42,413 bases of DNA, taken from IMG/VR virus record IMGVR_UViG_3300042861_001014, positions 1 to 42,413 of that record. One strand, given 5' to 3'. The notes beneath the pieces were generated by a model that searched no databases, was not told where the DNA came from, and was given only the letters and a program-made list of their open reading frames with translations. Source of the DNA: a virus. Made by a program: the position numbers and the translations under genes. This document shows positions 2,453 to 42,413 of the stretch, piece by piece (position 1 is the first letter of the stretch; every line of letters starts with the position of its first letter).

Positions 2453-2454
2453 GC

Positions 2455-3036: not shown

Positions 3037-3046
3037 AATTAAAAAT

Positions 3047-3463
3047 ATGTCACAATTAATTGGGCAAAACATGATGTTGGTAATATCAAGTTTTAGAAAT
3101 GCCAAATCTTTTACCATGATTCCTGTGAGTAATGACTCACCATATGTTGAAGCTATGTATGACCCTGCGTCAGGCATTTTAGCTGTAATTAGTAAAGTAA
3201 TGAAACAATCTTATCATATGATTGCAAAATTAGATGATGATGGACAACCAATTAAATTAAAAAATCCTAATCCACAAACTGGTAAAACAGTTAAAGAAGA
3301 AAGAAGATTAGTTGATACTTTTTCAGAATTTTATTTATCTGATCCTTTAGATATTGAGCAATTTATACATTTATTTGCAATTAATGCAGCAACATTTGAT
3401 TATAAAGCTTTTTTTGTTAATATCACTGAAACAAAAAAATCTAATATCATTTTACAAGCATAA
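3047..3463 (+). CDS. Small conserved phage protein next to DNA polymerase
   Basis: This 138-residue protein opens with alternating hydrophobic residues (QNMMLVISSFRNAKSF) followed by DPASGILAVISK, which suggests a compact beta-sheet N-terminal half. The C-terminal half is acidic and helical. I recall similar uncharacterised proteins in other phages, but no function. It has the size and acidic tail often seen in phage single-strand DNA-binding proteins and lies beside the polymerase, yet I see no clear OB-fold signature, so I do not name it SSB. It is the last gene before a terminator-like hairpin. Confidence 0.75.
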   Translation: MSQLIGQNMMLVISSFRNAKSFTMIPVSNDSPYVEAMYDPASGILAVISKVMKQSYHMIAKLDDDGQPIKLKNPNPQTGKTVKEERRLVDTFSEFYLSDPLDIEQFIHLFAINAATFDYKAFFVNITETKKSNIILQA

Positions 3464-3487
3464 CTAATCAATTATTAATTAAAAAAG

Positions 3488-3517
3488 AAAAGATGTATTA
3501 TATATGTCTTTTTTTTT
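3488..3517 (+). terminator. Probable intrinsic terminator before the polymerase gene
   Basis: AAAAGATGTA (3488-3497) pairs with TATGTCTTTT (3503-3512) through a 5-nt loop, with two G-T wobbles, and is followed by more T residues to 3517. The stem is AT-rich and therefore weak, but hairpin plus U-tract sits in one of the few spacers of this block. It may only partly attenuate transcription into the polymerase gene. Confidence 0.5.
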
Positions 3518-3534
3518 GCTCTAAACAATAAAAT

Positions 3535-22852: not shown

Positions 22853-22918
22853 TATAATATGTTTTTACATATAATTATAGTCAAATTTATATTATAATAT
22901 GTATTTGCATATAATTAT
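22853..22918. repeat. Two 26-bp direct repeats, each a dyad
   Basis: TATAATATG-N6-CATATAATTAT occurs at 22853-22878 and 22893-22918, 24 of 26 positions identical, spaced 40 bp start to start. Each copy holds the perfect inverted repeat ATATG-N6-CATAT. The second copy covers the stop codon of the 1,925-residue gene. The arrangement looks like a pair of operator or protein-binding sites. Confidence 0.7.
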
Positions 22919-25900
22919 TTAATGTAGAAATCTTGTGCTTTAATCATGTTGTCCCATTTTTGTATAGAATATAAAATAGGAACTACATCCGCCCAGTTTT
23001 TATATACTTTTAATTGACCTTTATTAGGTTTATTTTGATATACATATTCTGTATTAGCATAAAACTCCTCATCACTTTGATATAAATAAGCTAACGGTGT
23101 CATATAACTTAATGATATAGCTTCACCTAATTCACCTAATGTTCTGGTAGTTGCAATTGGTGATTTCATCAATGCATACTGTTGTTTTAAACCTTCAGGT
23201 AATGGTGTAAATGTTAATAATTCTTTATAAGTTCTATCTCCCTGTAGTCTTATAACATTTTTTAATCTTTTTGTTAATTCATCATCATCATCATCATTAG
23301 CTAATACACCGGCTAATATTGAATTTAATATGAAAACACTTAACATAATACCAATTTCACCAGTTGTTCTATAAAAACCTCTAAGTTTATCTTCAGCTCT
23401 TTGATCTAAATTTCCACCTTGTCCTGTAAATCCATAAGCTTCTTTAAAACTTTCATTATACTTAGCCGGATTAATACTTACATTACCTCTGACCATTTCA
23501 CCTTTAACATGGTTTAAAAATTTAAAGAAAGTTCTATAACGGCCTTCTACCCATCCTAAATTTTGATCAAAGTATTCTCTTCTAAATCTAGCTCTAATTG
23601 CAGGTGCAACCCACTTGTGAAATTGTGTTGCTAAGTTACCAAGAGTGTGACCTTGAATAACCATTCTATCTTCTTTAGCATAGTTACCGTGAATTTGTTT
23701 ATTCACCTCTCTGATTTGATTTCTTAAATCATATCTAAATTGATCAGTGTATGGTTGCTCACTACCATTTTTATTTACAATAGTATCATACCCAGGTATT
23801 AATTCATTCTTATGTGTTTCTGCATTATATTGGAATGCATCATAAAGAGATAATGTTTCTCCAGTTGCACTGTTTTTAATTGTAACATCCATAAGCATGG
23901 CCATACCAACTTTACTTTGTACATTATATTCAGCAGCATCTTGTATTACATAACCCCATTCTTTAAATCTAGACCAAATAGATTTGCTATCAAACTCAGA
24001 TGAATTTTCACGTATATCTGTAGCTTTATCCATCATTCTAAACATATCAACAAAAGCCTCATATTTAGAGTTAGGTTTATCAGCATTATAATCTGATTTT
24101 TTTAATCCTGCTTTTCCTAATGTAGCAATATCAGCAATATCAGTTAAGGCAGCACTTGTTCTATTTAATAATCCAGGGATACCTTGAACATTATATTCTT
24201 TAGTTGCTCTAGCATAATTTTGTTTACTAAAGTATCTACTACCTAACATTTCAATACCATTATTGATTCTACCCATAACGTAGTTGTTAAGGTTACCAAA
24301 TGGGTTAAATGCTACATAAGATAATGAAGATAGACCAATAAGCTCATCAGCAAGTTTATCAATCATTCCTTTTGTTGCAAGCTCATTGTCATAGTAAATC
24401 ATTGACATATATTTCTTAGCTCTTCTTAAAGCATTAGAATCAGAACCTTTAATTGTTCCTACTTTTTTAAATTTATTGTCAACTCTTGTTCCTGTAACTA
24501 TTAAAGGATCTGCTGGAGTATAAGTTCTATTTTCAATAACTTTTACCATAGCAGTAAGAGTATCTTCAATTTCACCCATTACTTCATAGTGTTCAGCCAT
24601 TGCACTAAACTTAAGTAAAGCATTAGTCATATCTTTGTTAAGTTCTCCTAATGAAGGTTGACTTCTAAGTTGAGCAGCTTTACCATTAAGTATTGCCAAT
24701 TCTGCTTTATATGCTTCCGGTCCAATTAATCCTTTTTTCTTTTTGTCTTGCAATGCTGTTATTTCTGTTTCAACATTTTTAAGATCTTCATCTACTCTTA
24801 ATTTACCTGTATAAAATATAGGAAGTGAGTCAACAAAATTACCTTGCTCATCAAGTAAAACATTTTTTTGTGTTGCAGTCTCTTGTGTAAAGTTTTTAAT
24901 AGATCTAACAGTATTAGCATACATTTTAGTTACAATGTTTGGTTGATCTTTTAATGTATCTAAAATATTATTTTTAACAATAGGAACACGTCCTGCCATT
25001 TGATCTTTAATACCTTGTGGTAATTTGTTTAATAATTCAGTTTCATAATAAGTAATAAATAAATTATAGAAGTTTCTTTGAGCAATACTTAATGCATCTG
25101 TTTTAGTGGTATCCATTAATGCAGCATACTTCTTACTACGCATATCTTGGCCAGATTCTGATATTTCTCTAGCTACTCTATATTGAACTTTTGGAGAACG
25201 TAATACTTGCTCTTTTGCAATTGCACCTGTTGGTTCACCATTAGTTCTTAATGCTTTAGTGTATGTACCAAAGTTATAATACTTAGCTTCATATATAGCA
25301 TAATCTCTATCTGAGATTCTTGGCTTTCTATACCAAGTTCCGTATTGTTTATTTTTAGATGGTACCCAAAATTCATATCTAGCTCTAGCATTTTTAAACT
25401 CATCAGTATATCTATGATATTCACCATCAATCAATTCTCCTTTATCATTTGATCCTTCAGCTTGAAAGAATTTGCTAAATGCAGCTTTCTTTTTAGCTAA
25501 TTCAATATTGTATTTAATATCTTCTGGTTTTGCTTTATCTAGATTACTTACATCTCTGTATTCATAGGGATTACCATTATCATCATAAAGTTGACTTCTT
25601 AATGATTGTTGCATAGCATAATATTGTTGTCCAATTTTTTGAGTATAAAACCCTGTAAATTGTCCATCTTTATCATACTCTAACATAAAATCATAAAGAC
25701 TTTGAAGATCTTTATTCCCTGAAAGTTTTAGTAACTCATTACCTGCAGTTCTAATTGCAATTTCTCTTTCAGCTATTTTATCTAATAATTTTTGTTTTTG
25801 GCTTTTATATATTTTATCCATTACTGCAAGTATGGTATCTTTTTGAGTAGCCATATCTTGCACATTTAATGCATCCATTGCAATATCCGGAGCCATAATT

Positions 25901-28692
25901 AAAAGATCATCTAGCATATCTTCTGTAAACATACTTCCTTGACCACCCCAATCATTAGTTGATCTAGTTCTAATTACCTCTTTTACATAATTAATAATTG
26001 CATCATTGATTAAACCATCATTGTTATTTGTACCAATAAGTTTATTTTGTTCAAGTTGCATTTGAAGAACCAATGTTCTTTGTGTAGCATTAAGTTCTTT
26101 AGAATCTTTAATGGAATACAAAGCCTCAAATGTACTTAAGAATCTATTGAAGTTTAAAGCATATGTAATATACTCAGGTTTATTTACATTAGCTGGATCT
26201 AAAACATATGCAGTAAATTTTTGCATTTGATTTAAAGAAGCTCTTAGTAAGTTAGTGTAAGTTTGAGATCTAGCAATTGGTCCTGTATTAATATTGCTAG
26301 CAATGTAAGCTAATGTACTTGCAATATCATCACGTGTTTGTTCTTTAGTTTTATCTCTATAAACATTAGTCTTAAGTCTATCCAATGCTTTATCTTGCTC
26401 TACTAAAGCCATACTATAGTTTTGTAGTGCATCAAAAATAGTATTATACTCTGGATATTGTTGAGCATCAATTGTATCAGCAATTTTTTCTAATGCTTCT
26501 ATATCTTGATCACCACGGTAGATAGCATCTTCTGCATTACCAATTGCTCTATCAAGACTTTCTTTTTCTGTATTATTCATTACAGATGGGACAAGCATAT
26601 CAACATATAATAAGTTTTCAGATAGTGGATGTTCAACTCTACCATCTAATTTAAAATTACCATTAAATACTTGTTCTTTTCCTACACCAGTTATATCTAC
26701 TTGTATATGAAATGTAATAGCACCACCGTCACCTTCATAAACAGTATAACCCATGTTTTCAAACATACGTCTGTAAAGATTTACTTGAAGATTATGTTGA
26801 GCTATAGTTGATAGTTTATCAACTCCATATAATTTTTTAAGATCACTACCAAGAAATATTTTTGGTGTACCATCAGGATTTAAAATAGGTTTTCCTTTTG
26901 CATCTAAAGCAGGCATATCTTCTTTTAATTCATATTCTTTTAACTCATATTTAGTACCTTGAGTTCTACCTGGTATTTTATTTTTTACTGCGTCAACAAA
27001 AGTTCTATCATAAATAGAATTTTTACTTGTCTTTAAATCTACAATTCTAATTTTACCATTCTTATCAATAACAACTAAGTCAGCTGTACCAGCAAGCTTT
27101 GTTGCTTCATCAAACACAACTACTTGAGAAATACCAACAGCACCTTGTGGAATTAACTGTGTAAGTTGTTCTTCCAACATGTTAAACATTTTTGCAGCTA
27201 GTTCTTCATCTAAAACTTTCATATTAGGAAACACTTCCTCAAATGATTGCTCTGATATAATTGCATCTAATAAAGCATCTACGTCATTACCAATGGCTAA
27301 GTTAAGTTGAACATCTTCTTCATTAGCAAGTTGACCTTTGATTGCTGTAGTAACTGATTTATAAATTTCTCTATTAGTAATATCTACATAGGTATGATCT
27401 TCTTTATTAAGAACTACAATTGTATTAGCAGAAGCAGTGTCACTTAAGTTTGCAGATAATGAATCTATTTCTTCTTTTGAACTAATAGCAACATGAAATA
27501 ACTTTTTGATTATTTCTTGTTGAATATTATTAGATTTATCCAATGCTTTGTTTACTATCTTTTGTTTTTCAGGAGACAGTGAATATCTTACTTTACCATT
27601 TGCTTTACTCTCAAGTTTAAACTGTATTCCCTCAGTATTTAAAAGTTTAGCAATGTCACTAAATGTAGTTTTATTATTTATGTCTTTTACAGATAAAGGT
27701 TTACCTGTAATATATTCATTTAAGTTATTAATAACATTTGCAAACCACTCCAGTGCTTGTTTAATTTTATCTAAAAACTTTTTAGTTGGAGTATTTTCAT
27801 ATTCTTTATTGAAATGTCTAGATAATGCTTGAGTTACTATTTCAAGATCTCTTTCTAATTGAGTAAAGTTTCTATTATCATCATAAGCTTCTGTAATAGA
27901 TTGAACCATTTCAGGAAAATTAATCTTAGCTTCTGCTAACAAACTATTAAACAGTTCTATATTATCTACTTTGATTGCATCAATAAAAGGGTGTAACATT
28001 TCTTCAATAGCAGTCTCATCTGTTACTCTTCCTTTAACTAAGTAAGCAATCCCGTCAACATAAAATGAATTTACTTCTTTAAAATTGACTTTACTTTTTT
28101 GCCATTTAGGTAATGAATTATAAAGAATTTCTGCGTCAGCAACACTAAGCATTTTAACTTGTATTTGTGGAAACATTCTTTTTAAATGCATTACAACAGC
28201 TCTAGATCTTGGTGTATCCCATGATCTAGATGATGGTAATATATCTTTAGGAGTAAATACATTTTGATTTACTTCTATTCTATATGTATTTTTAGTTGGT
28301 ATAATTGAAACAGCTTCTAAAGGAATATTGTTTATCTTTAGATATTGAATAATTTTATCACGGTTACTTTCTACTACTGCAGGATCAGCAACTCTATTAG
28401 CATAAAATACATTTGGATCAGAGACATTGATTAAGTTTAATCCAAATTCATTATGGATTAATTTTTGGTCTCTTAAATTATTTAATAAACTCTCAGCAAA
28501 ACTTTTTTGTTTTAATGCAAAAGCAACCTTATTATATTTAACAAACTGTTGTGCCTCAACTACAGTAGGAATAACATCTGTATTGTTTGCATCTTGCCAA
28601 CTATTAATAATATTATTTGTTGCAATTTCACTTTTATAAACTTCTTGTAAAGCTTTATACTCCGGTGTGTTTTTATTGGGACATCTTGCCAT
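22915..28692 (-). CDS. Giant virion/ejection protein with degenerate zincin and PD-(D/E)XK nuclease domains
   Basis: 1,925 residues. Around 225-300 lies a zincin-like domain in which the expected HExxH reads E230-E-M-L-H234, followed by helices with ERDLEIVTQAL, so the first His ligand is missing. Around 430-680 lies a RecB-like PD-(D/E)XK domain: D538 in AGTADLVVID, D552-L-K554 in IVDLKTSK, and a QxNLYRRMFE helix. The middle is long helical and coiled-coil sequence. Near 1770-1800 a hydrophobic segment (GIMLSVFILNSILAGVLA) is followed by a DDDDDE run. Starts 6 nt after the giant RNA polymerase gene stop. Comparable crAss-like proteins are packaged and injected with the genome, which I infer here. 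Confidence 0.8.
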   Translation of the reverse strand: MARCPNKNTPEYKALQEVYKSEIATNNIINSWQDANNTDVIPTVVEAQQFVKYNKVAFALKQKSFAESLLNNLRDQKLIHNEFGLNLINVSDPNVFYANRVADPAVVESNRDKIIQYLKINNIPLEAVSIIPTKNTYRIEVNQNVFTPKDILPSSRSWDTPRSRAVVMHLKRMFPQIQVKMLSVADAEILYNSLPKWQKSKVNFKEVNSFYVDGIAYLVKGRVTDETAIEEMLHPFIDAIKVDNIELFNSLLAEAKINFPEMVQSITEAYDDNRNFTQLERDLEIVTQALSRHFNKEYENTPTKKFLDKIKQALEWFANVINNLNEYITGKPLSVKDINNKTTFSDIAKLLNTEGIQFKLESKANGKVRYSLSPEKQKIVNKALDKSNNIQQEIIKKLFHVAISSKEEIDSLSANLSDTASANTIVVLNKEDHTYVDITNREIYKSVTTAIKGQLANEEDVQLNLAIGNDVDALLDAIISEQSFEEVFPNMKVLDEELAAKMFNMLEEQLTQLIPQGAVGISQVVVFDEATKLAGTADLVVIDKNGKIRIVDLKTSKNSIYDRTFVDAVKNKIPGRTQGTKYELKEYELKEDMPALDAKGKPILNPDGTPKIFLGSDLKKLYGVDKLSTIAQHNLQVNLYRRMFENMGYTVYEGDGGAITFHIQVDITGVGKEQVFNGNFKLDGRVEHPLSENLLYVDMLVPSVMNNTEKESLDRAIGNAEDAIYRGDQDIEALEKIADTIDAQQYPEYNTIFDALQNYSMALVEQDKALDRLKTNVYRDKTKEQTRDDIASTLAYIASNINTGPIARSQTYTNLLRASLNQMQKFTAYVLDPANVNKPEYITYALNFNRFLSTFEALYSIKDSKELNATQRTLVLQMQLEQNKLIGTNNNDGLINDAIINYVKEVIRTRSTNDWGGQGSMFTEDMLDDLLIMAPDIAMDALNVQDMATQKDTILAVMDKIYKSQKQKLLDKIAEREIAIRTAGNELLKLSGNKDLQSLYDFMLEYDKDGQFTGFYTQKIGQQYYAMQQSLRSQLYDDNGNPYEYRDVSNLDKAKPEDIKYNIELAKKKAAFSKFFQAEGSNDKGELIDGEYHRYTDEFKNARARYEFWVPSKNKQYGTWYRKPRISDRDYAIYEAKYYNFGTYTKALRTNGEPTGAIAKEQVLRSPKVQYRVAREISESGQDMRSKKYAALMDTTKTDALSIAQRNFYNLFITYYETELLNKLPQGIKDQMAGRVPIVKNNILDTLKDQPNIVTKMYANTVRSIKNFTQETATQKNVLLDEQGNFVDSLPIFYTGKLRVDEDLKNVETEITALQDKKKKGLIGPEAYKAELAILNGKAAQLRSQPSLGELNKDMTNALLKFSAMAEHYEVMGEIEDTLTAMVKVIENRTYTPADPLIVTGTRVDNKFKKVGTIKGSDSNALRRAKKYMSMIYYDNELATKGMIDKLADELIGLSSLSYVAFNPFGNLNNYVMGRINNGIEMLGSRYFSKQNYARATKEYNVQGIPGLLNRTSAALTDIADIATLGKAGLKKSDYNADKPNSKYEAFVDMFRMMDKATDIRENSSEFDSKSIWSRFKEWGYVIQDAAEYNVQSKVGMAMLMDVTIKNSATGETLSLYDAFQYNAETHKNELIPGYDTIVNKNGSEQPYTDQFRYDLRNQIREVNKQIHGNYAKEDRMVIQGHTLGNLATQFHKWVAPAIRARFRREYFDQNLGWVEGRYRTFFKFLNHVKGEMVRGNVSINPAKYNESFKEAYGFTGQGGNLDQRAEDKLRGFYRTTGEIGIMLSVFILNSILAGVLANDDDDDELTKRLKNVIRLQGDRTYKELLTFTPLPEGLKQQYALMKSPIATTRTLGELGEAISLSYMTPLAYLYQSDEEFYANTEYVYQNKPNKGQLKVYKNWADVVPILYSIQKWDNMIKAQDFYIK

Positions 28693-28698
28693 AGCTTA

Positions 28699-31600
28699 TT
28701 ATAAATTACATTGTTTTATTTGTTCAATAAATTCTTCTTGACTTGTGTATATACCTTTGTTATACATATCTATAAGATCTTCCAAAGATAATACATTATT
28801 ATTTAGTCTCAAGTTTTCTTTAGCTTGTGGATTTTTTTGAATATTAGTATCCCAAAAATTTTCAATTGCTGAATAATCACTTTCCATTTCAGCTGCAAAC
28901 TCTTCATACAATTCTCTTTCAAGATCACTCATTGAATCAAGTAAGGTAGTTTCATCAACACCAGTAGATGGTTGAGTAGATTTACTCCAAGTACCAATAA
29001 CCTGACCGTCAACTGTTACTTCAGAATAGTTATATCCTTTAGCTTCCATATTAGTATAAAGTCTTTTCTCTCCAGTATTATAACTACTAGCGTCAGTATA
29101 AGCTTTATTATCAGTAAGAATTGTTGCTCCTGCCTCTACAGCTTTAATAGCTTCCTTTATTGTTTTGTCTTGTTCTCTTTTTGCTATTTCAGCATTGCCT
29201 CTTAGTCCTGGAATAGATACAAATATTATATCATTACTAGAATAGTTACCGGTATTTGCTAACTTACCAGCTTGTTTTTTGTATGCCTCCGTTGAACTCC
29301 CTGTAATACCTTCTCCAAAACCTATAAACTGTGTAGCAATACTTGCTTTTATTTTAGCTTTCTTATCAGCTGTCTGTATAGGAGTTACTTCAAATAAGTT
29401 TTTCTTATCAAAGTTTTTAACACTAGTAGATGGTTGAGTAGGTTGTTTTGGTTCAGCATTAAGCATTGCTTCTAATGCGCTAATGTTTGCAATGTTATTA
29501 CCATTAATATTAACACCAAATTCATTTGCTTCAATATTAGCACTTTCATCATTTAAAGCTTCTAACTGAACCATTTCAGCAGCTGATAATGCATAATTTT
29601 CTTCTGCTCCAAAGTTTACACTATCTACATATCTATCTTGAGCTGTTGTTGTATTTTTAGTTTTAATTGAGTCTCTTACTTTTTTATATGTAGGTCTTTC
29701 ACCGAACATAAATCCAATTGGAGTTTGTTGATTAGAACCTTTTGTTTCTATTTCTTCATATACTTTTGTAGTTGACTCATCCTGAGTTGTAGACATATAT
29801 GTTTTATAAGAAATATAACCTGTTTGAAGATCTTCAATTTTATACCTTACAAAATCTTTAGGAGATGCTTTACCCATATCATCCCATTTGATTGTAACTT
29901 TATTTTTTTCAACAGTTACACCTTTAGGTAATAAACCAGTTTTGTTATTTATACTAAAAGTATATAGTAAAGGACCATTAATATTTGATTGTAAATAATT
30001 ATTAATAAAATCAGATTCTAATTCAGCTCTATTTAAACCAAATACTTTTTTGATATTTGTATCATCATCAGTTCTTAATGCTTTATTAGCAGTTTCAATT
30101 TGACTTAAATATGAATCCATGGTAAATGGACTAATAGCTTCTAATAAAGATGCATAACCAAGTTGTAACCCATCTTTAACCATTATGTAATTAATTATAG
30201 ATATTGCATCATTCTTAGTTTCTAATGAACCATATAGTTTAGCAAATGAATTTTGTAAGTCAACTTTTTGACCAGCATTCAAACTTCTAAATGTATTAGC
30301 ATTAAGCAAGTTCAAACCAGATTGATTTTTATCATCATCTGCTTTTTCACTTATTGCAAAGTTATCTAAGAAAAAGTTATTTTGACCTGCTTCTGTTGTA
30401 CGCATTCTATCAACTATATCATTAATTGATTCATATCCACCACCAGGGTAAATTAAATTATTATTTAATGTTGCTACAGATTGTGGATCATTATTTAATT
30501 TGTTTTGCTCATATGCTTTTATAGTTAAATATGATAACAAGTCTCTAGAAATTTTTGCTCTAGTTTCTTGTGTAAATTCAGTTGCATCAGAGTTTACATT
30601 CTCTAATACTTTAGTAAGTATTGCTTGAAAGTTTTCACTTGCTGATAAAAATGTTACTGGTAACAAATCATTTTTTATTTGATTGAATATCTCAAGATAT
30701 TTTGATTGCCATGTTTTACTTTTATATATTGGATTTAAATCCATAATAGCATCTTTAGCAAATAACTTATCTATTTGTTCAGCTTTTTCATTTACTGATG
30801 CAATATCTTTACCTAAGCCATTTGTTAATCCGGCTACAGCAGACATGTTACTTGTAAAGTCTTTAATCTCTACAGCATTAGAAAATAAGTTTAATATTGC
30901 AATTTTTTCTTTATCAGTTACTTCATTAGGATTATTAAATGCATCTATCAAAAGATTATCATTAACTTTAACAACTTCTGTAACTACAGTTTTATCTTTT
31001 TCATTTGCTTTTACACTATCAATTAAACCCGATAATATATTTTTAGTTATGGAAAGAACTCCAGGATCTAATTTATCTTTTTTGTTTAATGCTTGAGAAT
31101 AGATATCTTGTATTATTGGATTATTAATCAACAATAAAGATGTTTTAATAGGTACACCTAAAGCAGTTAAGTTACCTACAACTCCAAGAGCATGTTTATT
31201 TAAACCAAGTTTAGCAACAAGACGTTCTTTAGCATTATCCGTAACCATTGTAATTAATGATGATATAATATCTTGCTTACGTAATCCTTCTGTACCATTT
31301 GCTAATTGTTCTCTGGTTACTCCAAAGTTATCATAAGTAATTCCATTAACACTAATTACTGGACCCTTATCATTTATTGTAACACCATATTCAGTTAATA
31401 AACTTAAGTATACGTTAGGTAATACAATTGCTCCAATAGCAGCACCTTTATTATTTGTAAATGCTTTTATCTTACCAATAATGTTATTGATGTCAATGTT
31501 ATCTTCTCTTGAACGCTCAAGTAAACCTGGCAATAAACCTTTTGTTTCTTTTGTTCCTGCTAATTCATCTAATGCATCTTGTAATATTTTTAAACTAGCA

Positions 31601-34600
31601 GATGTATATGAAATTGGTGTTTCATTCTTATTTGTTGTTTCTGTTACACCAGTATTACCCATCAATGCATACTTATAATCTAGTATAGTATTATTCATTG
31701 GAGCTTCATATGGTTCACGGAATTTCTTTTTATAATCTAAATATTGTTCTTTAGTAATAGGCAATCCTAAAATTTGTAAAGCTTTAATACCATTTTTTGA
31801 TAGTCCCGCATCTAAAGCTGTTTTTTGTTCTGCATCTGTAATAGAATTTGCAATACTTGCAGCTTGAAGATTATTTTTATATAACTCTAATGCTTCAGCA
31901 TATGTTGTTCCAGGTTGAGCAACTTTTTCAGATACATACTTTAAGTAATCTGTGTATTTACCTTGATCTGTAGTTTGTTTACCATACTCATAGAACTGAC
32001 CTTTGCTTTCATAAAAGTCTTTAATCTGCATGTAAACTTTATCAATATCAAAATCCGCTCCTGATATCTCAATAAGCTCTTGAGCAAACATTGCAGATGA
32101 ACCATAGAATCCAGGTAAGAAGTCAACATGTTTAATATTTATTGTTGAATGATTATCTTGAGATGGAATACGTACACCAAACATTTTTGATAACACATCT
32201 GGAAATGCTCCATTAGTATTTTCAACTAAATCCATTACAGATTTAAAGTGAGCTGGCATAAGCATCTCAGTATATCTTTGACCTGTAAATTTACCGTCTT
32301 TATCATATTCTTTTACACCAGATCTTAAACGGTCAAGTATAACAACACCTTCTTTGTTATCTTTAAGTGTAACTGATAATGTATCATATTCACCTAATAC
32401 AGGTTTGTTGACCATACTATTCCAAACATTCTCTCTGATAATTTCAGATCTATCAGGAACGCCATTTTCATCTACACTAAATACTCTTCTATAAACTTTA
32501 GTACCAAAATCAGATACTAAAGCTACAGCATGACCTGGTGCTTTTTCAGCAAGTGCACCTTTACTTAAATAACTTAAGAACAATTGCTCAAATTTATTTA
32601 ACGTAATAGGGTTATTCAAATCATATTTTTGTTCTCCATCTTGAGTTGAAAAGAACTCTAGTAAATTACTACTTGCTTGAGATGCTTTAAGACCCTCAGT
32701 AGCATATCTTAAGAATGCTGTTAAGTTAGGGGTTAATTTATTGTTTTGTTTTGAGATTGCAAGTTCTTGCATTCCTTTTTCAAAACTAAAGATTAAGTTT
32801 CTTTTGTTCTTAAATTTCAACTCAACTTTAGCTGAGGTAGCAAGGTTATATGCAGTTCTAATTTGACCAACAGTCATTCCTAATGCCTCTACATATACAT
32901 TATCATTTTGCTCAGAAGTAACAATATTCTTTACTTGTGTTGGATCAATAACTTCTGTTTTATTTGAAGGTGTTAATACCTGAAGACCTATGTATTTAGC
33001 ACTTAATGTAGTGTATCCATTTGTAAATGAATCAGTATTTTCTAAATCACTAAGTGGATTTGCACGTTGTTTTAACATTTTAAGTGCAGATAATGGTGTA
33101 GCTATACTAATTGTATCTTTGGTTTTTTCAATAGCTTCAAGTTTAACTCTTAAATTGTGAAGTTCAACTTTATTTTCTTTAGCAACCCAAGTTATATTAC
33201 CATTCTCATCTACTACTTTATTAGATGTAAGTTGTGGAGTTAATACAAAAGCAGACATTTTAATGAATGTTTTACCATCACCGTATACTAACTTTTTAGA
33301 GTTAAGCATACTACCCATATCAACATAACCATCTTGACCAAATAATTCTTCAGAAGATATATCTTCACCAGCTTCAATCTTATCAATAAGTTTTGCTTGA
33401 GCAGGATTAAGTTTACCAAATCCAAACCACATATATCTAAATGCTTTTGTAGTCATCCATAACTGACCATCAGATCTATCAATATTTTTTCCAGTTAAAG
33501 CAGATACTCCTGTAGGTTCTTCTAAAGCAACTAAGCTAATATCATCAACAGTATGCATTACACCCATATCTTCTGCAGATATAGAAGTATAAGCACTATA
33601 GTATGCAGCATTCTGCATTTTAGCTCTTTTAACAGCATCAACTCCATCTTTTAATGTAACAGCTTGGTCACCTAAAAGAACTTCATTTATAGATGATGTA
33701 TTAATCCAGTCATTAAAGAATATTTGTTTTAAGTTATATTCTTTATCATAAGTAAGATTAAGTAATTCAGCTGACTCAATTAAATTCTGATTAGCTTTTG
33801 TTGTTGCTGCTAAACCTTCTGTTATACTTTTGCCTAATTGATCTTCTATTTTTAAGTCTATTAAACCTTCAGAAAATTTAGTATACTGACTTTCTAACTG
33901 CGCATTAACAATAGTTTTAAATGCATTATCAGTTATGTTTAATTCTTTCAAAGCTTCTTTCAATGAAGGAGCATCTTCACGTTTTGCAATTTCTTCTAAA
34001 CTAGCTTTTAATTCTGGAGTAAGTAATAAACCGGTATTTGTTAATTTAAATGCTCTACCTTTTTCATTATTGTTATATCCAAGTTGAGTTTCTTGATCAG
34101 CAGTTAAAAGGTTTGACTCTCGTATAACTCTAGCAGATTCTTCTCTTCTAATTCTATCATATTCACTTTCAATTCTATCAACAAAAATGTTTACAGTTTC
34201 ATCTGTCAATACAACTTTACCACCACCCGGTTTTTCAAACTTAACAGCTTTAACCACAGGTAGATACATTAAATCCCCAGTATTAGATGCTTCTAAAACT
34301 CTAATAAGGATTGGAGCTAATGCCGCTTTAACATTTTTTTCAAGTACATTATCATAATATTCTACAACATCAACTTTATTACTTTTAGTATTTAATAAAG
34401 CAGTATATGTATTAAGTATACTTAAAGCAAATTCTTGTGGTGTATAATTACCGTAAGATGCTTTATTAGATACACCTGATATTTTATCATTAAGTTCTTC
34501 TTCAGTACTATTAATTTTACCAACACTACTTCCAGCTACTCTTAATACTCTTTGTCTATTTTCTGCAGACATTTTTAAAAATGCTTCACTATTTAACAAA

Positions 34601-37600
34601 AAGTTATTTGCTAAGTATGGATCAGATTCTTTAAGACGCTCAAGTTCTGCTACATCATTTAATTCTTGTATTCTTTTTAAATGGAATGTAGGTAGTTGAT
34701 GTGCATATACTAAGTTACCTTCAGGATTTTTAAATACAGATGCTCCAATTGTTTCATCAAATTGTCCATTTTGAATTGCTAATGTTCTAAGTCTGGAAGC
34801 AGCTCCATCTTTTCCTTCACTAAAAGGATCATTACCGGATTGAATTATTAAACTTAACTCTGTAATATCACTATACATCATAGGTGTTTGTTCAGAGTTG
34901 GCATTTAATAATGCTGCCTGCATTGGTGTAGGATTATTTCTTGATGATGCAATACTAAATGCAATAAATTGTTTACTTAATTTAATACCTGTAAGTCTAA
35001 AAATATCTTGTGAATATTTAGAAGATAGTTCAGATAATTTTGGATCAGTAATTTCTGTATTACTTTTAATTAATTTACCATTTAAATCAACTCTAGTTAA
35101 ATAACTTGCAAAATCTTCTAATGTTCTTACAGTTTCATTTTTAACTTTTACATCAGATTTAATTTTCTTTTCAGCTTGACCCCAAGCTTGAGACCATGAT
35201 TCTAATTGTGAATTAATATCATCTCTTTGTGCAGCAGAATAAATTAATACTGCACCAGCATCATCTCTTTGTACAAATAAGTAGTCTACTCTGAAAGTTG
35301 TAAATCCTTTTACAACAGATGTAAATAAAGCACTATTTTTAATCTCAGTAGGTAATGGACCTGCCTCTAACAATGTTTCTACAGATATACCAAAGTCTTG
35401 TAATAATCTTGTTACAACTGCTCCAGTCTGAGGATTATCTAATCCAAAGAAGTACATATTCTGTAACATCTTTTTAGGATCATCAATATTCTTAACAGCT
35501 TTTAATAATCCATTATATGCAGATATAAAATTAATAGGAACAATTAGTTTTACTCCAGGCTTCAATTCTTTGTTACCAAAGTAATCTGTTTCTTCTATAG
35601 TTGTTGTAGCTAAGTAACTTCTCAATCCTTCAGATAAAGAACCAAAACCACCAATCATAGAAGCATCCATACTGTACTGTTCTACATTTCTTAAACCAAC
35701 TTCTTCTTCAAAATATTCATTATTATATTCTTCTTCTTGAGTTTGTTTAGTAATAATGTTTAATACTTTATATACTTCAGATTTTAATTCATCAGAGAAA
35801 TTATAAAACACCTCACTAATCTGAGGTAAGAATTTTTTCTGTTCATCAGATAATTTTTGATTTGCTTCAGTTTCTTCATCATATAAAGCAGCAAAATCAT
35901 TAATTACATTTTCAAGTATGTCCCCGCGTTTAACATTTGGATCTCTTACTTTTGAAACTTCTTGTATGTACATAGCAGCTATACTTGAAACCAAAGGTTC
36001 AGCAATAGCACTATCTAAGAAATAGTATCCAACTTTACCATTAGCATTCTGTTCTGTATCATATGGTATTAATGCATTAGCTTCTAATGTTACACCAGTC
36101 ATCATACTGGTAACAAATTGATTTTGACTTACTCCCGCGTTTTTAAACTTACCTGCATCAATGTTTTCATATAAAGTAAGTAATTGATTCCTAGTAAAAG
36201 ATTTGAATACAGACTGAATCCAATCCATAATTCTACTGAATAAAGACTTAACAGAAGAATCTGTTTGAGTTGATTTTGCATTTGTTTTGAATTTCTCAAA
36301 TTCATCCGCCAGGTATTCTTCATAATATTCTTGTTCTAATCTTTCACGGCTCATATTAGAGTAAGTATTAGCTGAATTTCTGAATCTTTCTAATTCAGCT
36401 TCAAAGCTTTTACCTTCTGCTCTCAGTTTTGCTCTTACTTCTTTTCTAGCAATTGCTAAATATTTTTTGATTTCTGCATCAGTTAATAACATTCTGAATA
36501 CACCATGAAATGCTTCATGATATTTAAATGGAGATTTAGCTCCAGTAAATAAAGTTCCATTAACAGTTAATCCACCACCAATATTACTAAGACCTAAAAC
36601 AAATGCACCAACACGTACACCTCCTGCTTTAAGATTATCACCTAAAGTTTCAATATCTTCTATTGTAATATAATCTGGAAGACTTAAACTAGCCCATACT
36701 TTAAATGCCTCAATGTCTTCAATATCTTCAGTAACTGTATTTAAATCAATAATTTTATTAGCTTCATTTTCTAATTTTTTTCTTTCAGCTAAAAGATCTG
36801 CATACTCTTGACTATCTTTTACAGCTTTAATCTTAGCTGCTCCAACTAGTCCTTCAGTAAGTTGTGCTTTAAGTAATTCAAGTTGTTGTTTAACAGCTTC
36901 TAATTTATTTAATCTAACACCATTTCTTAATGCAGCAATATCATCTATATTAATATCTTCAGGATTAATATTGTCTATATTAACCGCATCTGCTCTTTCT
37001 TCTGGAGTTACTATTACTTCTTCAGTACTTTCTAAAGCAGCTACTTCAGCATTAACAAAATTATAAAGGTCTTGTGGTTGAGTTTTTATAAGATGATTAA
37101 TCCATTTAGCTTTAGTTAATACAGGTTTAATTAATGCGTTTCCTGTTTTAACCAACTTTAATATTTCATGTTGCTGACCATCTTTAGTTACTACAAAATA
37201 TGTAGAACCTTTATCATTGGCTACAACATCACTGTATGGTAATCCAATCTTATCTAATTCTGCCTTTATCTGTGAAACTACTTCCTCAGAAGTTTGTTCC
37301 ATTTTACCAGATGCATCTGTTGTTACATTAATAGATACAGGTTGTTTTTCTATTTCCTGCATTCTATTTTTAACTGTTTGTGCATCAGCTTTAGCAGTTG
37401 AAACTTCTTCTGATGCAACAAAAGCAGTTCTTTGAACTACGGGAATATTTCTAGCAGCTTGTATAGCTGAAGAGTCTGCAGACAATTGAATTGCATTAGG
37501 AGATACCACTTGTGGAGCAACTTGTGTTGTTGTCTTATTAAGGATTTCTTGAACACCAGCCTCTCTTGAAAATTTCTTTTTAAAATTTGATTTAGATAAT

Positions 37601-40600
37601 GTAAATCCAACTTTGTTAGTTACAGAACTTACTGCATTTTTTAATAGATCTGTTTCATTAGCTTGATCAAATAGAATTTGTATTTTTTGATCAACAGTAA
37701 GATTTTTATTATTAGCAGTTTTTCTATCTAATTGTAATTTAATACTTGTATTATTATACTTAATAGATAATTGAAGTTTACCATATTCATTTACTTCAAG
37801 AGCAAAATTATATCCAGAATAACCTGAAAGATATACCTTACTATTTATATTTGAATTAAATTCTGAGTTAAAATCATTTCTATTATTTTTATTTTCAGCA
37901 ACATTTTTATCTATTTGATTAAAATAACTTAAAAGTAATTCATCTACTACTTCAGATTCTACTGTTTCAGATTTTAAATTAACTAAAGCATATGTACCAT
38001 TAGGTAATAATACTGCAGCCACATAAGTATCTGTTAAACTTGTAATACCATCTAACAATCCTTGCTTAGTTAGACTCTCTTCAACTCTATCTATAAGTTG
38101 TCTTCTTTCTTCACCTTCAAGATTTGATATAGCAATTTTAGTTCTTGGACCCGTTTCAGTTTTTTCTAATTGATAAATTAAATAATTACCATTTTCATCA
38201 GCAGCACTAAATTGTAAATCTGTTAATGGTTTTGGTGACTTATCATACATCATTACTCCTAGTTTAGAAATAAAAGATAAACCATTTGGTAATTTTGAAA
38301 TAGCAATAACCCCATCAGGATTAAGTGCTACTAATTCAGGTAACACAGAACTTAATAAATTATTCAATGCAAAATTATCTTGAGCACGTTTTAAATCTTC
38401 TTCAGGATTTATATCCATACCCTCTGGTGTATATATTATATTTTTATATTCATCTGCGGTCATGGTAGCTGGGTTGATAACAGTACCTTGAGAGTTAGTG
38501 ATTATAAAATTAGTATTTTGCATATAACCAAAAATACCATTTGTAGAATTGTTTTTATTTAAACCTTTTTCTGCTATAGCTTTATCAACTTTAGCTTGTA
38601 CATCTGGATTAGAAATTCTTATACCTACAGAATATTTTGCTCTTATTGTTTGAATATACGGATTTGCTTCTTTAAAACCTGGTATAATTAAATTTCCATT
38701 ATTCATACCACCTTGTGGATCAGCTATAATTACCAATTCTAATTCAGCTAATTCTTCAGGTGTTAGTATAGATAGAACTAAGTTATATCTTGCTATTGCT
38801 TGTTCTGGACTTTCTGTCCATTGATCAGTAGTGGTATCTTTATTTCTATATGGATAAGGTTGAATAGGTTCAAGTACATTTAATCTACTAACACTTTGTG
38901 GTAGTACTTTAAGTTCTAAATCTTGAATGCTAAATGATGCTTTAAATTCACCAGGCTTAACAGGGATTGTAGCTCTTTTAGTATCTTCTACTGAAGGACT
39001 AATTGCATCAGATGGTATTAATAATAACTTACGTTGACTATTTACTTGTTTAGGTTCACTTAATACAATAAATTCTTTACCTGTTTGATCATATACAAGT
39101 TGACCATAATTTAATTCAACATCATCAAATGTAAATTTTGTAGTATCTGGTGCCGCATTATCAAGAGTTTTTTGCATTAATAATGCTTTTGCTTTATCTC
39201 CTTCAACATAAATACCAAAGGAAGCAATACCATATCTATTTAAAGTTTCTTCATCTAATGGTTGTTTATATTGATCAACTAATTGATATGAAGTATTTAT
39301 ATTACCTTGTGAGTCAACTGTTTTTAATTCAATTAATGAAACACTATTACCTTTCTTAATTATTGTTACATTTTTATTTCCTTCTACATTTTCTCCTTTA
39401 TTAGGTAACAATTCTGTCTGACCTGTAACATCATCAATAGTTAACCCTAATGCATTAACAACATTCTGTACTAAGTCATTTGTTTTACCTTCTTGACTTT
39501 GCAACCAAGTTATTAATCCAGTTTCATTATTAATTTCTTCTTCAGTAAGTGGGTTATTAGGATTTATTAATGTATCATTATCAATCCAAATTTTCTTAAC
39601 AGCAATGAATGCAGCTCTATGATTTTTACCATCTTCACTATTAATCCATTTATCTAAAGTGATTGGTTTTTTACCAGCTGCTGTTTGTTTAGCTGCATAC
39701 TTAGCATAAGCTTTTTGCATTGTGTTTTCTAACACAACTGAATCTTTAACTGAAACTTCAATATTTATACCATCTAGTATATCATCAACTTCAGTTCTAG
39801 CTTCTTCAGCTACAGCTTCATCTGTTTTAACCTCTTCTACTTTCTTATCTGGTCTAATTTGTTCATAATCCTTTAGTAATGTTTGTATTTCTTCTAAATC
39901 TGATTTATCAAAAGCACCTAATTGTTCACCTTTTTGATTATAAAATGTTTTTAAATATTTACTGTCTCCAGTTTCTAAAAACTTTTTCATTTCCTCATTA
40001 TTAGGAATAAATCCTGCTTTTGCAATTTGATTAGCTAATTCATTTCTTTGAATTACACCAACATAATCACGTACTTGTTGTTCAAATATTTTTTTTCTGT
40101 TTTTATATTGTTCTTGTAATACTTCAGCAGTTCTTTGAAATACAAGATCAAACTTTTGAGGATCATTTAAATACTCAATTGTTTTATCATATACTTTAGC
40201 TCTACCCTGTAATGCATTATAATCAATTATTTGTTTTAATGCAGCATCAATATTTTGTTTATTTACAAAAGAACCTGTTTGTTTGGCCATGTATTGAACA
40301 TACTTTTCAAATTCTTTTCTAAGTGCACCTATTTTTCTTTTATCAAAAGAACCATCTTTAGCTTGATTTTCTGCATTCATTAGAATATTTTTAAATGCTG
40401 CTAATCTTTCTATTTTTTCTGTTTTTTCTTTTACTTTTTTCTCATTTGTCTTATCAGCAGATAAAACAATAGCTTCTTCAGTTAACATTTGTATTTCTTT
40501 ATCAATAGAATCTTGATCTAATAATACAGTTAAATCATTAGCTGCCATTTTATCAAATAAAGGATCAGATGCTAAATTTTGATATATACTATTTGATCTT

Positions 40601-42413
40601 TCTAATGCTCTAGTAAATCCATCTTGTGTAAACATGTAAAGATATCTTGCATGTTCAAATGCAATTTTCTTTATTGTTTCTTCCGTCCATTGTCTTGAAC
40701 CTTTTTCATAAGCTTCAGGCATAAATGGATTTGGATTTCTATCTTTTGATTCTTCATATACTTCTTGAGTTTTATCAATTTGATTAACCATACTTTGAAG
40801 ACGCTCTCTAATCTTTCCATTCTTAATATCTTTTTTACTAGAAGGAAAAGCTGTTGCCAAATCTTCATCAGACATCTTCATATAATCAAGCAATTGATCT
40901 TGAAATAAAGCCGCACCACCTGTACTTAATACAGTATGTATTTGTTGGAACTTAGCAAAATCTGTTTCATCAATAAAATCAAATTGATCATTAGCAATAG
41001 AAGCTAATGTCTTTCCTTGAGCTGCAGCTTTTTGCATTAAGAAATTATATCTTTTAGGATCAAAAATTGAATTTGGATCTTCAGCTTGTGCATTCCAAAC
41101 AGCATTATATGTATCAACTACAGATTTAATATAGTTTTCTTTATTTTGTTTGTACTCAGCATATTTTTCTGGATTAGCAACTCTTTGATATAGAGCAGGT
41201 ACACCTTGGAAGAATAACTTTTGAGGTCCAGATACTACACCACCCATTAAAAATCCTGACATAAACACATCAAAACCTTGAGCTGAAAATTGTTCACCTA
41301 ATCCAGCTTTAACAGATGCATTAAATAATTCAGGTCCACCATTCATTGGATCCTTTAATAGACTGGTATAATAATTTTTAGTACCTGCAGAAATAGCTTC
41401 TTGAGAAAGTTCTTGAACACCTTCTCCTAAGTTTGCAGCAAAATATCTTAATGAACCTTGACCTAATTTTGTTAAGTTACCTTTAACTCCTGCATTAGCA
41501 ATTGTTGTAGCTAATCCTTTAAGTCCTGTACCAGCATCTTTAAATGGACTTGTTTTAGCTCCTGTTTTAATAATTCTACTACCAATACCTTTTGCTTGCT
41601 CATTAAATATTCTACCTAATGATTTATTAAATCCACCTAATGAATTACCTAAAACTAATTTATTAGTTAAATATATTACAGGCATGTTTGTCATTGTAGT
41701 TGCAAATGCAGCTTTATGTGCATTGTTTTGAATATCAGCAACTTGCTCTGTAGTAACAGGACTACCACCATTTTCACTAAACTTAATATCCATACCATCT
41801 TTAATCAATTGATTATAGACCATACCTCCTTCAAGTTTACTTTCTGATAATGCTAAATTTAAAGCTCTTACGTCTCTATAAAATGAACCAGCATACTCAG
41901 ATGCTTTGGCCATGTTAGTTAAATTTTGTGCAACTACCTCTGTAGTTTTTAATCTTTTAATAGCAGCCATTGTCTCAGGTGCAAATAATCCAGCAGTCAT
42001 TTTACCACCAGTTGTGGCAATAGACCAAAAATCTTTTGCTGCATCAACATTTTTTAAGGTAGTCATCATACCTCTTCCTGCACTATATAATCTACCAACA
42101 GTAGTAGCTTGACCAACAGCTCTTGTTAATCTTGCTGCATTAGCTGTAGTTCTTGCAGCTACTAATGGAGTTGCACCACCAAATGTCCCTACTTCTAAAG
42201 CAGCTAAAGCAACTTCTTCTAAAGCAATAGATCCTATAATACCTACAGTATATGCTGAATTTAATAATAAATTATTTGACCAAGCTAAAGCACCACCTCT
42301 ACTTGAATTACCAATTGCCATAGCATCTTCAAACTCAGTAGCTGATTTTAAATCTGTTGTCATTGACTCACCAGTAAACATAGATCCAATAGATCTATAA
42401 CCACCCATAAACC
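28699..42413 (-). CDS. Giant virion RNA polymerase polyprotein (5' end outside window)
   Basis: At least 4,569 residues without a stop; the frame stays open past the first in-window ATG (42408) to the window edge, so the N-terminus is missing or uncertain. Order: Ala/Gly-rich hydrophobic segments (1-~420) typical of ejection proteins; long charged coiled coils; a zincin domain with H1964-E-A-F-H1968 and a downstream EEYLADEF (E2030/2031); more helical sequence; the RNA polymerase core with SGADFDIDK, D3452/D3454/D3456 being the DxDxD Mg-binding motif of double-psi beta-barrel polymerases; and a C-terminal Rossmann-like domain (~4350-4475, DIIFVSIPG ... AGATILTDNKAY). In crAss-like phages this polymerase is delivered with the DNA and transcribes early genes. 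Confidence 0.88.
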   Translation of the reverse strand, partial: FMGGYRSIGSMFTGESMTTDLKSATEFEDAMAIGNSSRGGALAWSNNLLLNSAYTVGIIGSIALEEVALAALEVGTFGGATPLVAARTTANAARLTRAVGQATTVGRLYSAGRGMMTTLKNVDAAKDFWSIATTGGKMTAGLFAPETMAAIKRLKTTEVVAQNLTNMAKASEYAGSFYRDVRALNLALSESKLEGGMVYNQLIKDGMDIKFSENGGSPVTTEQVADIQNNAHKAAFATTMTNMPVIYLTNKLVLGNSLGGFNKSLGRIFNEQAKGIGSRIIKTGAKTSPFKDAGTGLKGLATTIANAGVKGNLTKLGQGSLRYFAANLGEGVQELSQEAISAGTKNYYTSLLKDPMNGGPELFNASVKAGLGEQFSAQGFDVFMSGFLMGGVVSGPQKLFFQGVPALYQRVANPEKYAEYKQNKENYIKSVVDTYNAVWNAQAEDPNSIFDPKRYNFLMQKAAAQGKTLASIANDQFDFIDETDFAKFQQIHTVLSTGGAALFQDQLLDYMKMSDEDLATAFPSSKKDIKNGKIRERLQSMVNQIDKTQEVYEESKDRNPNPFMPEAYEKGSRQWTEETIKKIAFEHARYLYMFTQDGFTRALERSNSIYQNLASDPLFDKMAANDLTVLLDQDSIDKEIQMLTEEAIVLSADKTNEKKVKEKTEKIERLAAFKNILMNAENQAKDGSFDKRKIGALRKEFEKYVQYMAKQTGSFVNKQNIDAALKQIIDYNALQGRAKVYDKTIEYLNDPQKFDLVFQRTAEVLQEQYKNRKKIFEQQVRDYVGVIQRNELANQIAKAGFIPNNEEMKKFLETGDSKYLKTFYNQKGEQLGAFDKSDLEEIQTLLKDYEQIRPDKKVEEVKTDEAVAEEARTEVDDILDGINIEVSVKDSVVLENTMQKAYAKYAAKQTAAGKKPITLDKWINSEDGKNHRAAFIAVKKIWIDNDTLINPNNPLTEEEINNETGLITWLQSQEGKTNDLVQNVVNALGLTIDDVTGQTELLPNKGENVEGNKNVTIIKKGNSVSLIELKTVDSQGNINTSYQLVDQYKQPLDEETLNRYGIASFGIYVEGDKAKALLMQKTLDNAAPDTTKFTFDDVELNYGQLVYDQTGKEFIVLSEPKQVNSQRKLLLIPSDAISPSVEDTKRATIPVKPGEFKASFSIQDLELKVLPQSVSRLNVLEPIQPYPYRNKDTTTDQWTESPEQAIARYNLVLSILTPEELAELELVIIADPQGGMNNGNLIIPGFKEANPYIQTIRAKYSVGIRISNPDVQAKVDKAIAEKGLNKNNSTNGIFGYMQNTNFIITNSQGTVINPATMTADEYKNIIYTPEGMDINPEEDLKRAQDNFALNNLLSSVLPELVALNPDGVIAISKLPNGLSFISKLGVMMYDKSPKPLTDLQFSAADENGNYLIYQLEKTETGPRTKIAISNLEGEERRQLIDRVEESLTKQGLLDGITSLTDTYVAAVLLPNGTYALVNLKSETVESEVVDELLLSYFNQIDKNVAENKNNRNDFNSEFNSNINSKVYLSGYSGYNFALEVNEYGKLQLSIKYNNTSIKLQLDRKTANNKNLTVDQKIQILFDQANETDLLKNAVSSVTNKVGFTLSKSNFKKKFSREAGVQEILNKTTTQVAPQVVSPNAIQLSADSSAIQAARNIPVVQRTAFVASEEVSTAKADAQTVKNRMQEIEKQPVSINVTTDASGKMEQTSEEVVSQIKAELDKIGLPYSDVVANDKGSTYFVVTKDGQQHEILKLVKTGNALIKPVLTKAKWINHLIKTQPQDLYNFVNAEVAALESTEEVIVTPEERADAVNIDNINPEDINIDDIAALRNGVRLNKLEAVKQQLELLKAQLTEGLVGAAKIKAVKDSQEYADLLAERKKLENEANKIIDLNTVTEDIEDIEAFKVWASLSLPDYITIEDIETLGDNLKAGGVRVGAFVLGLSNIGGGLTVNGTLFTGAKSPFKYHEAFHGVFRMLLTDAEIKKYLAIARKEVRAKLRAEGKSFEAELERFRNSANTYSNMSRERLEQEYYEEYLADEFEKFKTNAKSTQTDSSVKSLFSRIMDWIQSVFKSFTRNQLLTLYENIDAGKFKNAGVSQNQFVTSMMTGVTLEANALIPYDTEQNANGKVGYYFLDSAIAEPLVSSIAAMYIQEVSKVRDPNVKRGDILENVINDFAALYDEETEANQKLSDEQKKFLPQISEVFYNFSDELKSEVYKVLNIITKQTQEEEYNNEYFEEEVGLRNVEQYSMDASMIGGFGSLSEGLRSYLATTTIEETDYFGNKELKPGVKLIVPINFISAYNGLLKAVKNIDDPKKMLQNMYFFGLDNPQTGAVVTRLLQDFGISVETLLEAGPLPTEIKNSALFTSVVKGFTTFRVDYLFVQRDDAGAVLIYSAAQRDDINSQLESWSQAWGQAEKKIKSDVKVKNETVRTLEDFASYLTRVDLNGKLIKSNTEITDPKLSELSSKYSQDIFRLTGIKLSKQFIAFSIASSRNNPTPMQAALLNANSEQTPMMYSDITELSLIIQSGNDPFSEGKDGAASRLRTLAIQNGQFDETIGASVFKNPEGNLVYAHQLPTFHLKRIQELNDVAELERLKESDPYLANNFLLNSEAFLKMSAENRQRVLRVAGSSVGKINSTEEELNDKISGVSNKASYGNYTPQEFALSILNTYTALLNTKSNKVDVVEYYDNVLEKNVKAALAPILIRVLEASNTGDLMYLPVVKAVKFEKPGGGKVVLTDETVNIFVDRIESEYDRIRREESARVIRESNLLTADQETQLGYNNNEKGRAFKLTNTGLLLTPELKASLEEIAKREDAPSLKEALKELNITDNAFKTIVNAQLESQYTKFSEGLIDLKIEDQLGKSITEGLAATTKANQNLIESAELLNLTYDKEYNLKQIFFNDWINTSSINEVLLGDQAVTLKDGVDAVKRAKMQNAAYYSAYTSISAEDMGVMHTVDDISLVALEEPTGVSALTGKNIDRSDGQLWMTTKAFRYMWFGFGKLNPAQAKLIDKIEAGEDISSEELFGQDGYVDMGSMLNSKKLVYGDGKTFIKMSAFVLTPQLTSNKVVDENGNITWVAKENKVELHNLRVKLEAIEKTKDTISIATPLSALKMLKQRANPLSDLENTDSFTNGYTTLSAKYIGLQVLTPSNKTEVIDPTQVKNIVTSEQNDNVYVEALGMTVGQIRTAYNLATSAKVELKFKNKRNLIFSFEKGMQELAISKQNNKLTPNLTAFLRYATEGLKASQASSNLLEFFSTQDGEQKYDLNNPITLNKFEQLFLSYLSKGALAEKAPGHAVALVSDFGTKVYRRVFSVDENGVPDRSEIIRENVWNSMVNKPVLGEYDTLSVTLKDNKEGVVILDRLRSGVKEYDKDGKFTGQRYTEMLMPAHFKSVMDLVENTNGAFPDVLSKMFGVRIPSQDNHSTINIKHVDFLPGFYGSSAMFAQELIEISGADFDIDKVYMQIKDFYESKGQFYEYGKQTTDQGKYTDYLKYVSEKVAQPGTTYAEALELYKNNLQAASIANSITDAEQKTALDAGLSKNGIKALQILGLPITKEQYLDYKKKFREPYEAPMNNTILDYKYALMGNTGVTETTNKNETPISYTSASLKILQDALDELAGTKETKGLLPGLLERSREDNIDINNIIGKIKAFTNNKGAAIGAIVLPNVYLSLLTEYGVTINDKGPVISVNGITYDNFGVTREQLANGTEGLRKQDIISSLITMVTDNAKERLVAKLGLNKHALGVVGNLTALGVPIKTSLLLINNPIIQDIYSQALNKKDKLDPGVLSITKNILSGLIDSVKANEKDKTVVTEVVKVNDNLLIDAFNNPNEVTDKEKIAILNLFSNAVEIKDFTSNMSAVAGLTNGLGKDIASVNEKAEQIDKLFAKDAIMDLNPIYKSKTWQSKYLEIFNQIKNDLLPVTFLSASENFQAILTKVLENVNSDATEFTQETRAKISRDLLSYLTIKAYEQNKLNNDPQSVATLNNNLIYPGGGYESINDIVDRMRTTEAGQNNFFLDNFAISEKADDDKNQSGLNLLNANTFRSLNAGQKVDLQNSFAKLYGSLETKNDAISIINYIMVKDGLQLGYASLLEAISPFTMDSYLSQIETANKALRTDDDTNIKKVFGLNRAELESDFINNYLQSNINGPLLYTFSINNKTGLLPKGVTVEKNKVTIKWDDMGKASPKDFVRYKIEDLQTGYISYKTYMSTTQDESTTKVYEEIETKGSNQQTPIGFMFGERPTYKKVRDSIKTKNTTTAQDRYVDSVNFGAEENYALSAAEMVQLEALNDESANIEANEFGVNINGNNIANISALEAMLNAEPKQPTQPSTSVKNFDKKNLFEVTPIQTADKKAKIKASIATQFIGFGEGITGSSTEAYKKQAGKLANTGNYSSNDIIFVSIPGLRGNAEIAKREQDKTIKEAIKAVEAGATILTDNKAYTDASSYNTGEKRLYTNMEAKGYNYSEVTVDGQVIGTWSKSTQPSTGVDETTLLDSMSDLERELYEEFAAEMESDYSAIENFWDTNIQKNPQAKENLRLNNNVLSLEDLIDMYNKGIYTSQEEFIEQIKQCNL

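Follow-up and report, generated by a model that had tools for sequence, protein, structure and literature searches.

A probable virion RNA polymerase of about 4,760 residues, joined end to end to a cargo-type module, in an undescribed and mostly aquatic lineage of crAss-like phages

An informative characteristic of crAss-like phages is that related cargo and virion RNA polymerase (vRNAP) modules are divided among genes differently in different families. In the Steigviridae (phi14:2, crAss001 and cr128_1) there are three genes. The polymerase of Cellulophaga phage phi14:2, gp66 (gp077 in KC821624; solved structure 6VR4), is a stand-alone protein of 2,180 aa with separate neighbouring genes, gp078 and gp076. 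In Bacteroides phage crAss001 the three modules are gp47, gp50 and gp49, with gp47 on the opposite strand; all three are virion proteins by mass spectrometry, and an ejection model with partial unfolding has been published for this phage (PMC10172136). The Intestiviridae (p-crAssphage, 'jaberico' and cr271_1) have the reciprocal partition: polymerase and C-module form one protein, and the zincin is encoded on its own. In p-crAssphage (Carjivirus communis) the content falls into two genes, gp45 and gp44, with the polymerase and C-module recognised by profile and the zincin protein by annotation and an HExxH motif. According to a review, crAss vRNAP genes can encode up to ~6,000 aa (PMC10136315). 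Outside this group, giant virion polymerases that do comparable work are gp96 of Thermus phage P23-45, a clamp-less enzyme fused to the tape-measure protein (TMP) (PMC10770324), and the vRNAP of coliphage N4, a giant single chain with a T7-type fold (PMC12633501).

Here we describe a further polymerase giant, encoded in a 42,413-base IMG/VR fragment (IMGVR_UViG_3300042861_001014) whose whole length is called the window below. An ORF scan gives 4,570 codons without a stop at 28699..42411 on the minus strand, reaching the contig edge, in agreement with the original prediction of a single polypeptide of more than 4,500 residues that is still open there. All features below lie on the same strand, and residue numbers start at the open end. 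Given the local base composition, an open frame of this length has a chance probability of ~10^-174, and the longest open run in the other frames of the region is 137 codons. An ARAGORN tRNA-Leu call inside the coding frame (42155-42229) is absent in four relatives and is probably false. The complete protein is estimated at ~4,760 aa, with ~190 N-terminal residues beyond the contig end, because in the complete relatives L003 and L007 (79-87% identical) the start lies 191 residues upstream of the first residue of the window. A search of IMG/VR, first with the catalytic piece and afterwards with an alignment, yielded 265 relatives; 80 of them were retained and read. Counting frames uncut at the 3' end, 67 of these carry a DFDID-containing frame of >3,800 codons and three are broken, two by apparent frameshifts (L033 and L059; L034 of the same group is intact) and one, L027, by a different N-terminal half. 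As stop-to-stop lengths, closed frames inside the relatives' loci range from ~4,500 to 4,875 codons, and frames on whole contigs reach 5,084-5,447.

The giant and its pieces have no match in Pfam, PHROGs or NCBIfam, and phmmer against PDB sequences gave a chance hit only. Against phage records, the core and N-terminal pieces had no blastn or tblastn match, or only crAss matches at ~35%, and we therefore relied on profiles and folds. The catalytic DFDID motif is at residues 3453-3457 (32041..32055; 3452-3456 when counted from the first ATG), and its context, RIPSQDNHS...FLPGFYGSS...SGADFDIDK, is present exactly as the original prediction had quoted it. RIP, HS and SGADFDID are invariant in 39 non-redundant family members, as are all DxDxD residues and the surrounding core. 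By hhalign, residues 2729-3939 match phi14:2 gp077 residues 686-1835 (probability 99.0), the product of a gene that RefSeq names 'g066 catalytic RNA polymerase subunit', and residues 2976-4225 match crAss001 gp50 (probability 99.3); the latter match runs from the core into the C-terminal part of the polymerase (residues 3931-4325; 29437..30621). An AlphaFold2 model of the core (residues 2735-3930; 30622..34209), built with 35 sequences, has a pLDDT of 82.0 and a pTM of 0.78. Its best Foldseek match is 6VR4 (E 3.5e-28), with a Z of 19.0 and an rmsd of 4.0 A over 918 aligned residues, spanning 6VR4 692-1826. QDE-1 and RDR2 follow at Z ~12, and gp96 of P23-45 is a weaker structural match (Z 8.7). 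The reading of DFDID as a catalytic loop of phi14:2 type is borne out by these comparisons, and the double-psi beta-barrel fold around it, which the original prediction had named as the test, is what the model predicts. The core is accordingly best described as a predicted two-barrel RNA polymerase of the phi14:2 gp66 type, with both barrels assigned through the whole-fold match to 6VR4.

A second AlphaFold2 model, of residues 1850-2850 (pLDDT 75), shows where the polymerase starts. Residues 2133-2850 align with 6VR4 106-814 (Foldseek E 7.3e-12, Z 7.3, 572 residues aligned), so that residues 2133-2735 (34207..36015) correspond to the domain with which phi14:2 gp66 begins, its N-terminal one. 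Beyond sharing the polymerase fold and DFDID, gp66 is collinear with the giant from gp66 residue ~106 to ~1826. As the 6VR4 match sets in at residue 2133, the polymerase begins directly after a zincin-like metallopeptidase domain (residues ~1935-2092; 36136..36609). In that domain the motif YHEAFH (HEAFH at residues 1965-1969; 36505..36519) and E2031-E2032 are invariant in 39 family sequences, and hhalign aligns residues 1964-2092 with the zincin at the C-terminal end of crAss001 gp47 (probability 95.5, E 1.3e-8). The domain has no Pfam match, and no known zincin fold is among the matches listed for the model, which is no argument against one; we call it zincin-like on the basis of motif and profile. 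The joint between the two (residues ~2087-2130; 36022..36153) includes a low-confidence linker in the model (residues 2087-2111). When the window is compared with four relatives, dN/dS is 0.15-0.63 across every conserved section, all <1, with 0.17-0.30 for the polymerase core and 0.27-0.42 for the joint, which indicates that the joint, too, is under purifying selection.

Upstream of the zincin-like domain, a fast-evolving linker region with few invariant positions (residues ~775-1880; 36772..40089) follows an N-module (residues ~39-774; 40090..42297) that is homologous to the N-terminal part of cargo proteins of the crAss001 gp47 type. Residues 39-563 match the separate N gene of Spirosoma elements (hhalign probability 97.2), and residues 51-774 match the N-terminal part of the gp47-type protein of a bajarodcaudo virus (probability 95.8). 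The module has only one marginal hydrophobic segment, and homology to crass cargo proteins supports an ejection role only indirectly. The predicted order from N- to C-terminus is thus an N-module of cargo type, the zincin-like domain and a complete two-barrel RNA polymerase of the phi14:2 gp66 type; the protein joins a gp47-like module to a gp66-like polymerase, end to end and collinearly. Of the other fused parts in the original prediction, the metallopeptidase stands as a zincin-like domain and the ejection-like segments are recognisable by homology; what had been called a Rossmann-like domain appears instead to be a recent insertion (residues ~4330-4475; 28987..29424). This window-specific segment is absent from relatives that are 79-87% identical over the rest of the giant, and among phages it matches only proteins of Vibrio phages that are annotated as hypothetical. 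Separately, in the broken frame of L027 (L027:3899-13783) a polymerase half, corresponding to window residues 2827-4570, is preceded by a different N-terminal half. This half, ~1,728 aa long, contains the motif HEYQH and weakly matches the inserted domain of the window.

The C-module is encoded by a gene of its own (1,925 aa; 22915..28692), 6 bases downstream of the giant ORF. Its product is linked by hhalign and tblastn to crAss001 gp49 (hhalign probability 99.9), phi14:2 gp76 (97.9) and the C-terminal part of p-crAssphage gp44 (98.7); gp076 is accordingly the C-module counterpart in phi14:2, and gp078 of that phage has no profile match to the window proteins. Within the C-module gene lies a PD-(D/E)XK nuclease domain (27007..27285; Pfam PF12705, E 3.3e-5; PHROG 298), which matches crAss001 gp47 1713-1851 (hhalign probability 92.1). 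This nuclease domain seems to have been rearranged, being part of the C-module gene in the window lineage and of gp47 in crAss001.

The original prediction had stated that other genomes split this content into two or three genes, and the Intestiviridae (two) and Steigviridae (three) agree with it. It had also suggested an extreme fusion particular to this lineage, an idea that does not survive comparison with the Suoliviridae (delta crAss). Deposited members of this family, with giants of 4,328-4,946 aa, have the same two-gene partition as the window, in which a giant with HEAFH and then DFDID is followed by a separate C-module gene, and the upper size given for crAss vRNAP genes is larger still. 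In cr118_1 (MT774379) the two proteins have 4,946 aa (annotated 'DNA helicase') and 1,667 aa, with HEAFH at 1737 and DFDID at 3212; residues 1725-3416 match 1953-3761 of the window family with a probability of 99.9, a similarity at profile level only. The corresponding lengths are 4,551 and 2,007 aa in cr1_1, 4,400 and 1,561 aa in cr6_1, 4,645 and 1,709 aa in cr53_1, and 4,328 and 1,381 aa in cr109_1. HEAFH and DFDID/DFDVD were confirmed in the sequences of cr118_1 and cr1_1; for cr6_1, cr53_1 and cr109_1, whose frames are interrupted when read with the standard code, annotated gene lengths were used. Suoliviridae giants (L110, L114, L115 and others) carry the names 'DNA helicase', 'exonuclease V', 'DprA-like' and 'nuclear pore complex-like' in RefSeq/GenBank, which are misleading for RNA polymerases. 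In bajarodcaudo virus 1 (L113:5386-13605) the catalytic motif is where the polymerase gene breaks into two parts, and an endonuclease gene lies between them, an arrangement that an intron would produce. The Suoliviridae differ from the window lineage in habitat, gut versus aquatic. What appears to be new is a large, undescribed and mostly environmental clade with this layout; the layout itself was already present in deposited Suoliviridae.

The crAss-like affiliation of this clade was assessed with TerL, portal and major capsid protein (MCP) in relatives, as the window fragment does not include those regions. TerL (E<=8e-16) and portal (E<=1.5e-16) of crAss001 have matches in 10/10 larger relatives (~90-120 kb), and the crAss001 MCP has a direct match in 2/13 records. 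Reciprocal TerL and portal searches return crAss-like records, with the portal nearest to Leptolyngbya phage Lbo-JY46 and the epsilon group. In an unrooted tree of the RNAP core a branch (98) sets off the aquatic clade, which with the Spirosoma elements forms one side of the tree (SH-aLRT 100), separate from Steigviridae, Intestiviridae and Suoliviridae; because of the long branches the deeper order is unsafe. The Suoliviridae fall among the known crAss families, on a branch separate from the aquatic clade. These data point to a lineage of undescribed, mostly aquatic or environmental crAss-like phages, where 'aquatic' is our reading of some IMG sample numbers and of near relatives that include no gut records.

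Two groups of relatives deserve separate mention. The cyanophage Lbo-JY46 (L015) stands nearest by its portal (32.6%, 5e-103). It has retained relatives of the C-module (2,748 aa) and, as a weak match, of the N-module (1,552 aa), and the polymerase core was not detected in the stretch read. Large ORFs of epsilon crAss phages gave no match to either module in the stretches read, and their RNA polymerase may lie elsewhere (PMC11054128). In the isolate genomes of Spirosoma oryzae DSM 28354 and S. terrae KCTC 52035 (L094, L096, L118-L127), a crAss-type portal is found ~50 kb from a split version of the polymerase cassette on contigs of 229 kb and 574 kb. Tyrosine integrase genes are nearby, beside a MacB/FtsX gene in S. 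oryzae and tRNA-Arg in S. terrae, and no att repeat was seen in the stretches read. These elements look like integrated crAss-related prophages; a review describes crAss-like phages as strictly lytic.

Taken together, the giant is very probably the virion RNA polymerase of this lineage, made as one chain of ~4,760 residues with the C-module gene adjoining. By extension from characterised crassviruses, the chain would be packed in the capsid near the portal and would pass the tail partly unfolded, with the N-module leading. It may then refold in the host cytoplasm and transcribe early phage genes, as has been shown for phi14:2, and the product of the second gene would be the remaining cargo or polymerase-associated protein, with its PDDEXK domain. 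A single chain would in this way do the job of the separate gp47 and gp50 of the Steigviridae, and the fusion would tie packaging and ejection of the polymerase covalently to the front cargo module. The N- and C-modules of Lbo-JY46, with no detectable core between them, fit a picture of the polymerase as a passenger between delivery modules.

A rival reading, which we consider unlikely, is the polyprotein-style delivery of the original prediction, in which one chain is cleaved into gp47-like and gp66-like products before or during ejection, with its own zincin-like domain as a possible protease. The position of that domain directly before the joint and its low-confidence linker would suit such a cut, and the Steigviridae produce both parts as separate proteins; however, no cleavage motif was found. 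In addition, the vRNAP of N4 has an HExxH domain within a chain of 3,500 residues that is handled as one single-chain enzyme (PMC12633501). The narrower version, in which the zincin-like domain itself cuts the joint during or after ejection, is a shade less probable again. If it were true, proteolysis would time the release of the polymerase in the host cell. Self-cleavage is disfavoured because crAss001 gp47, an unfused protein that needs no such processing, has the zincin as well, at its C-terminal end, and because HExxH has been lost in Spirosoma although the zincin region remains fused to the polymerase.

A single uncut chain with an active polymerase is hence the reading that we prefer. 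It is quite improbable that the polymerase has decayed and is retained as non-catalytic, structural cargo; the flanking modules that persist in Lbo-JY46 could be taken that way, but the invariance of DxDxD and its surroundings and the low dN/dS of the core speak against it. An assembly or sequencing artefact joining separate genes, as might be suspected of a metagenomic fragment that ends inside a gene and has frameshifted relatives, can be dismissed for practical purposes, given that 67 relatives, which come from many independent samples, have the long frame and only three have a broken one, that RefSeq Suoliviridae have it too, and that purifying selection spans the joint.

For the biology of crAss-like phages, these comparisons show that a single cassette of three cargo and polymerase modules is divided among genes in at least three arrangements, 1+1+1, 1+(2+3) and (1+2)+3, the last of which gut Suoliviridae share with a large environmental clade that has no named members. 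In the giant, the joint lies at an end-to-end boundary between domains. The alternative partitions may serve as a natural experiment on whether the order of ejection is fixed, and on whether a covalent tether of the polymerase to the front cargo protein is required.
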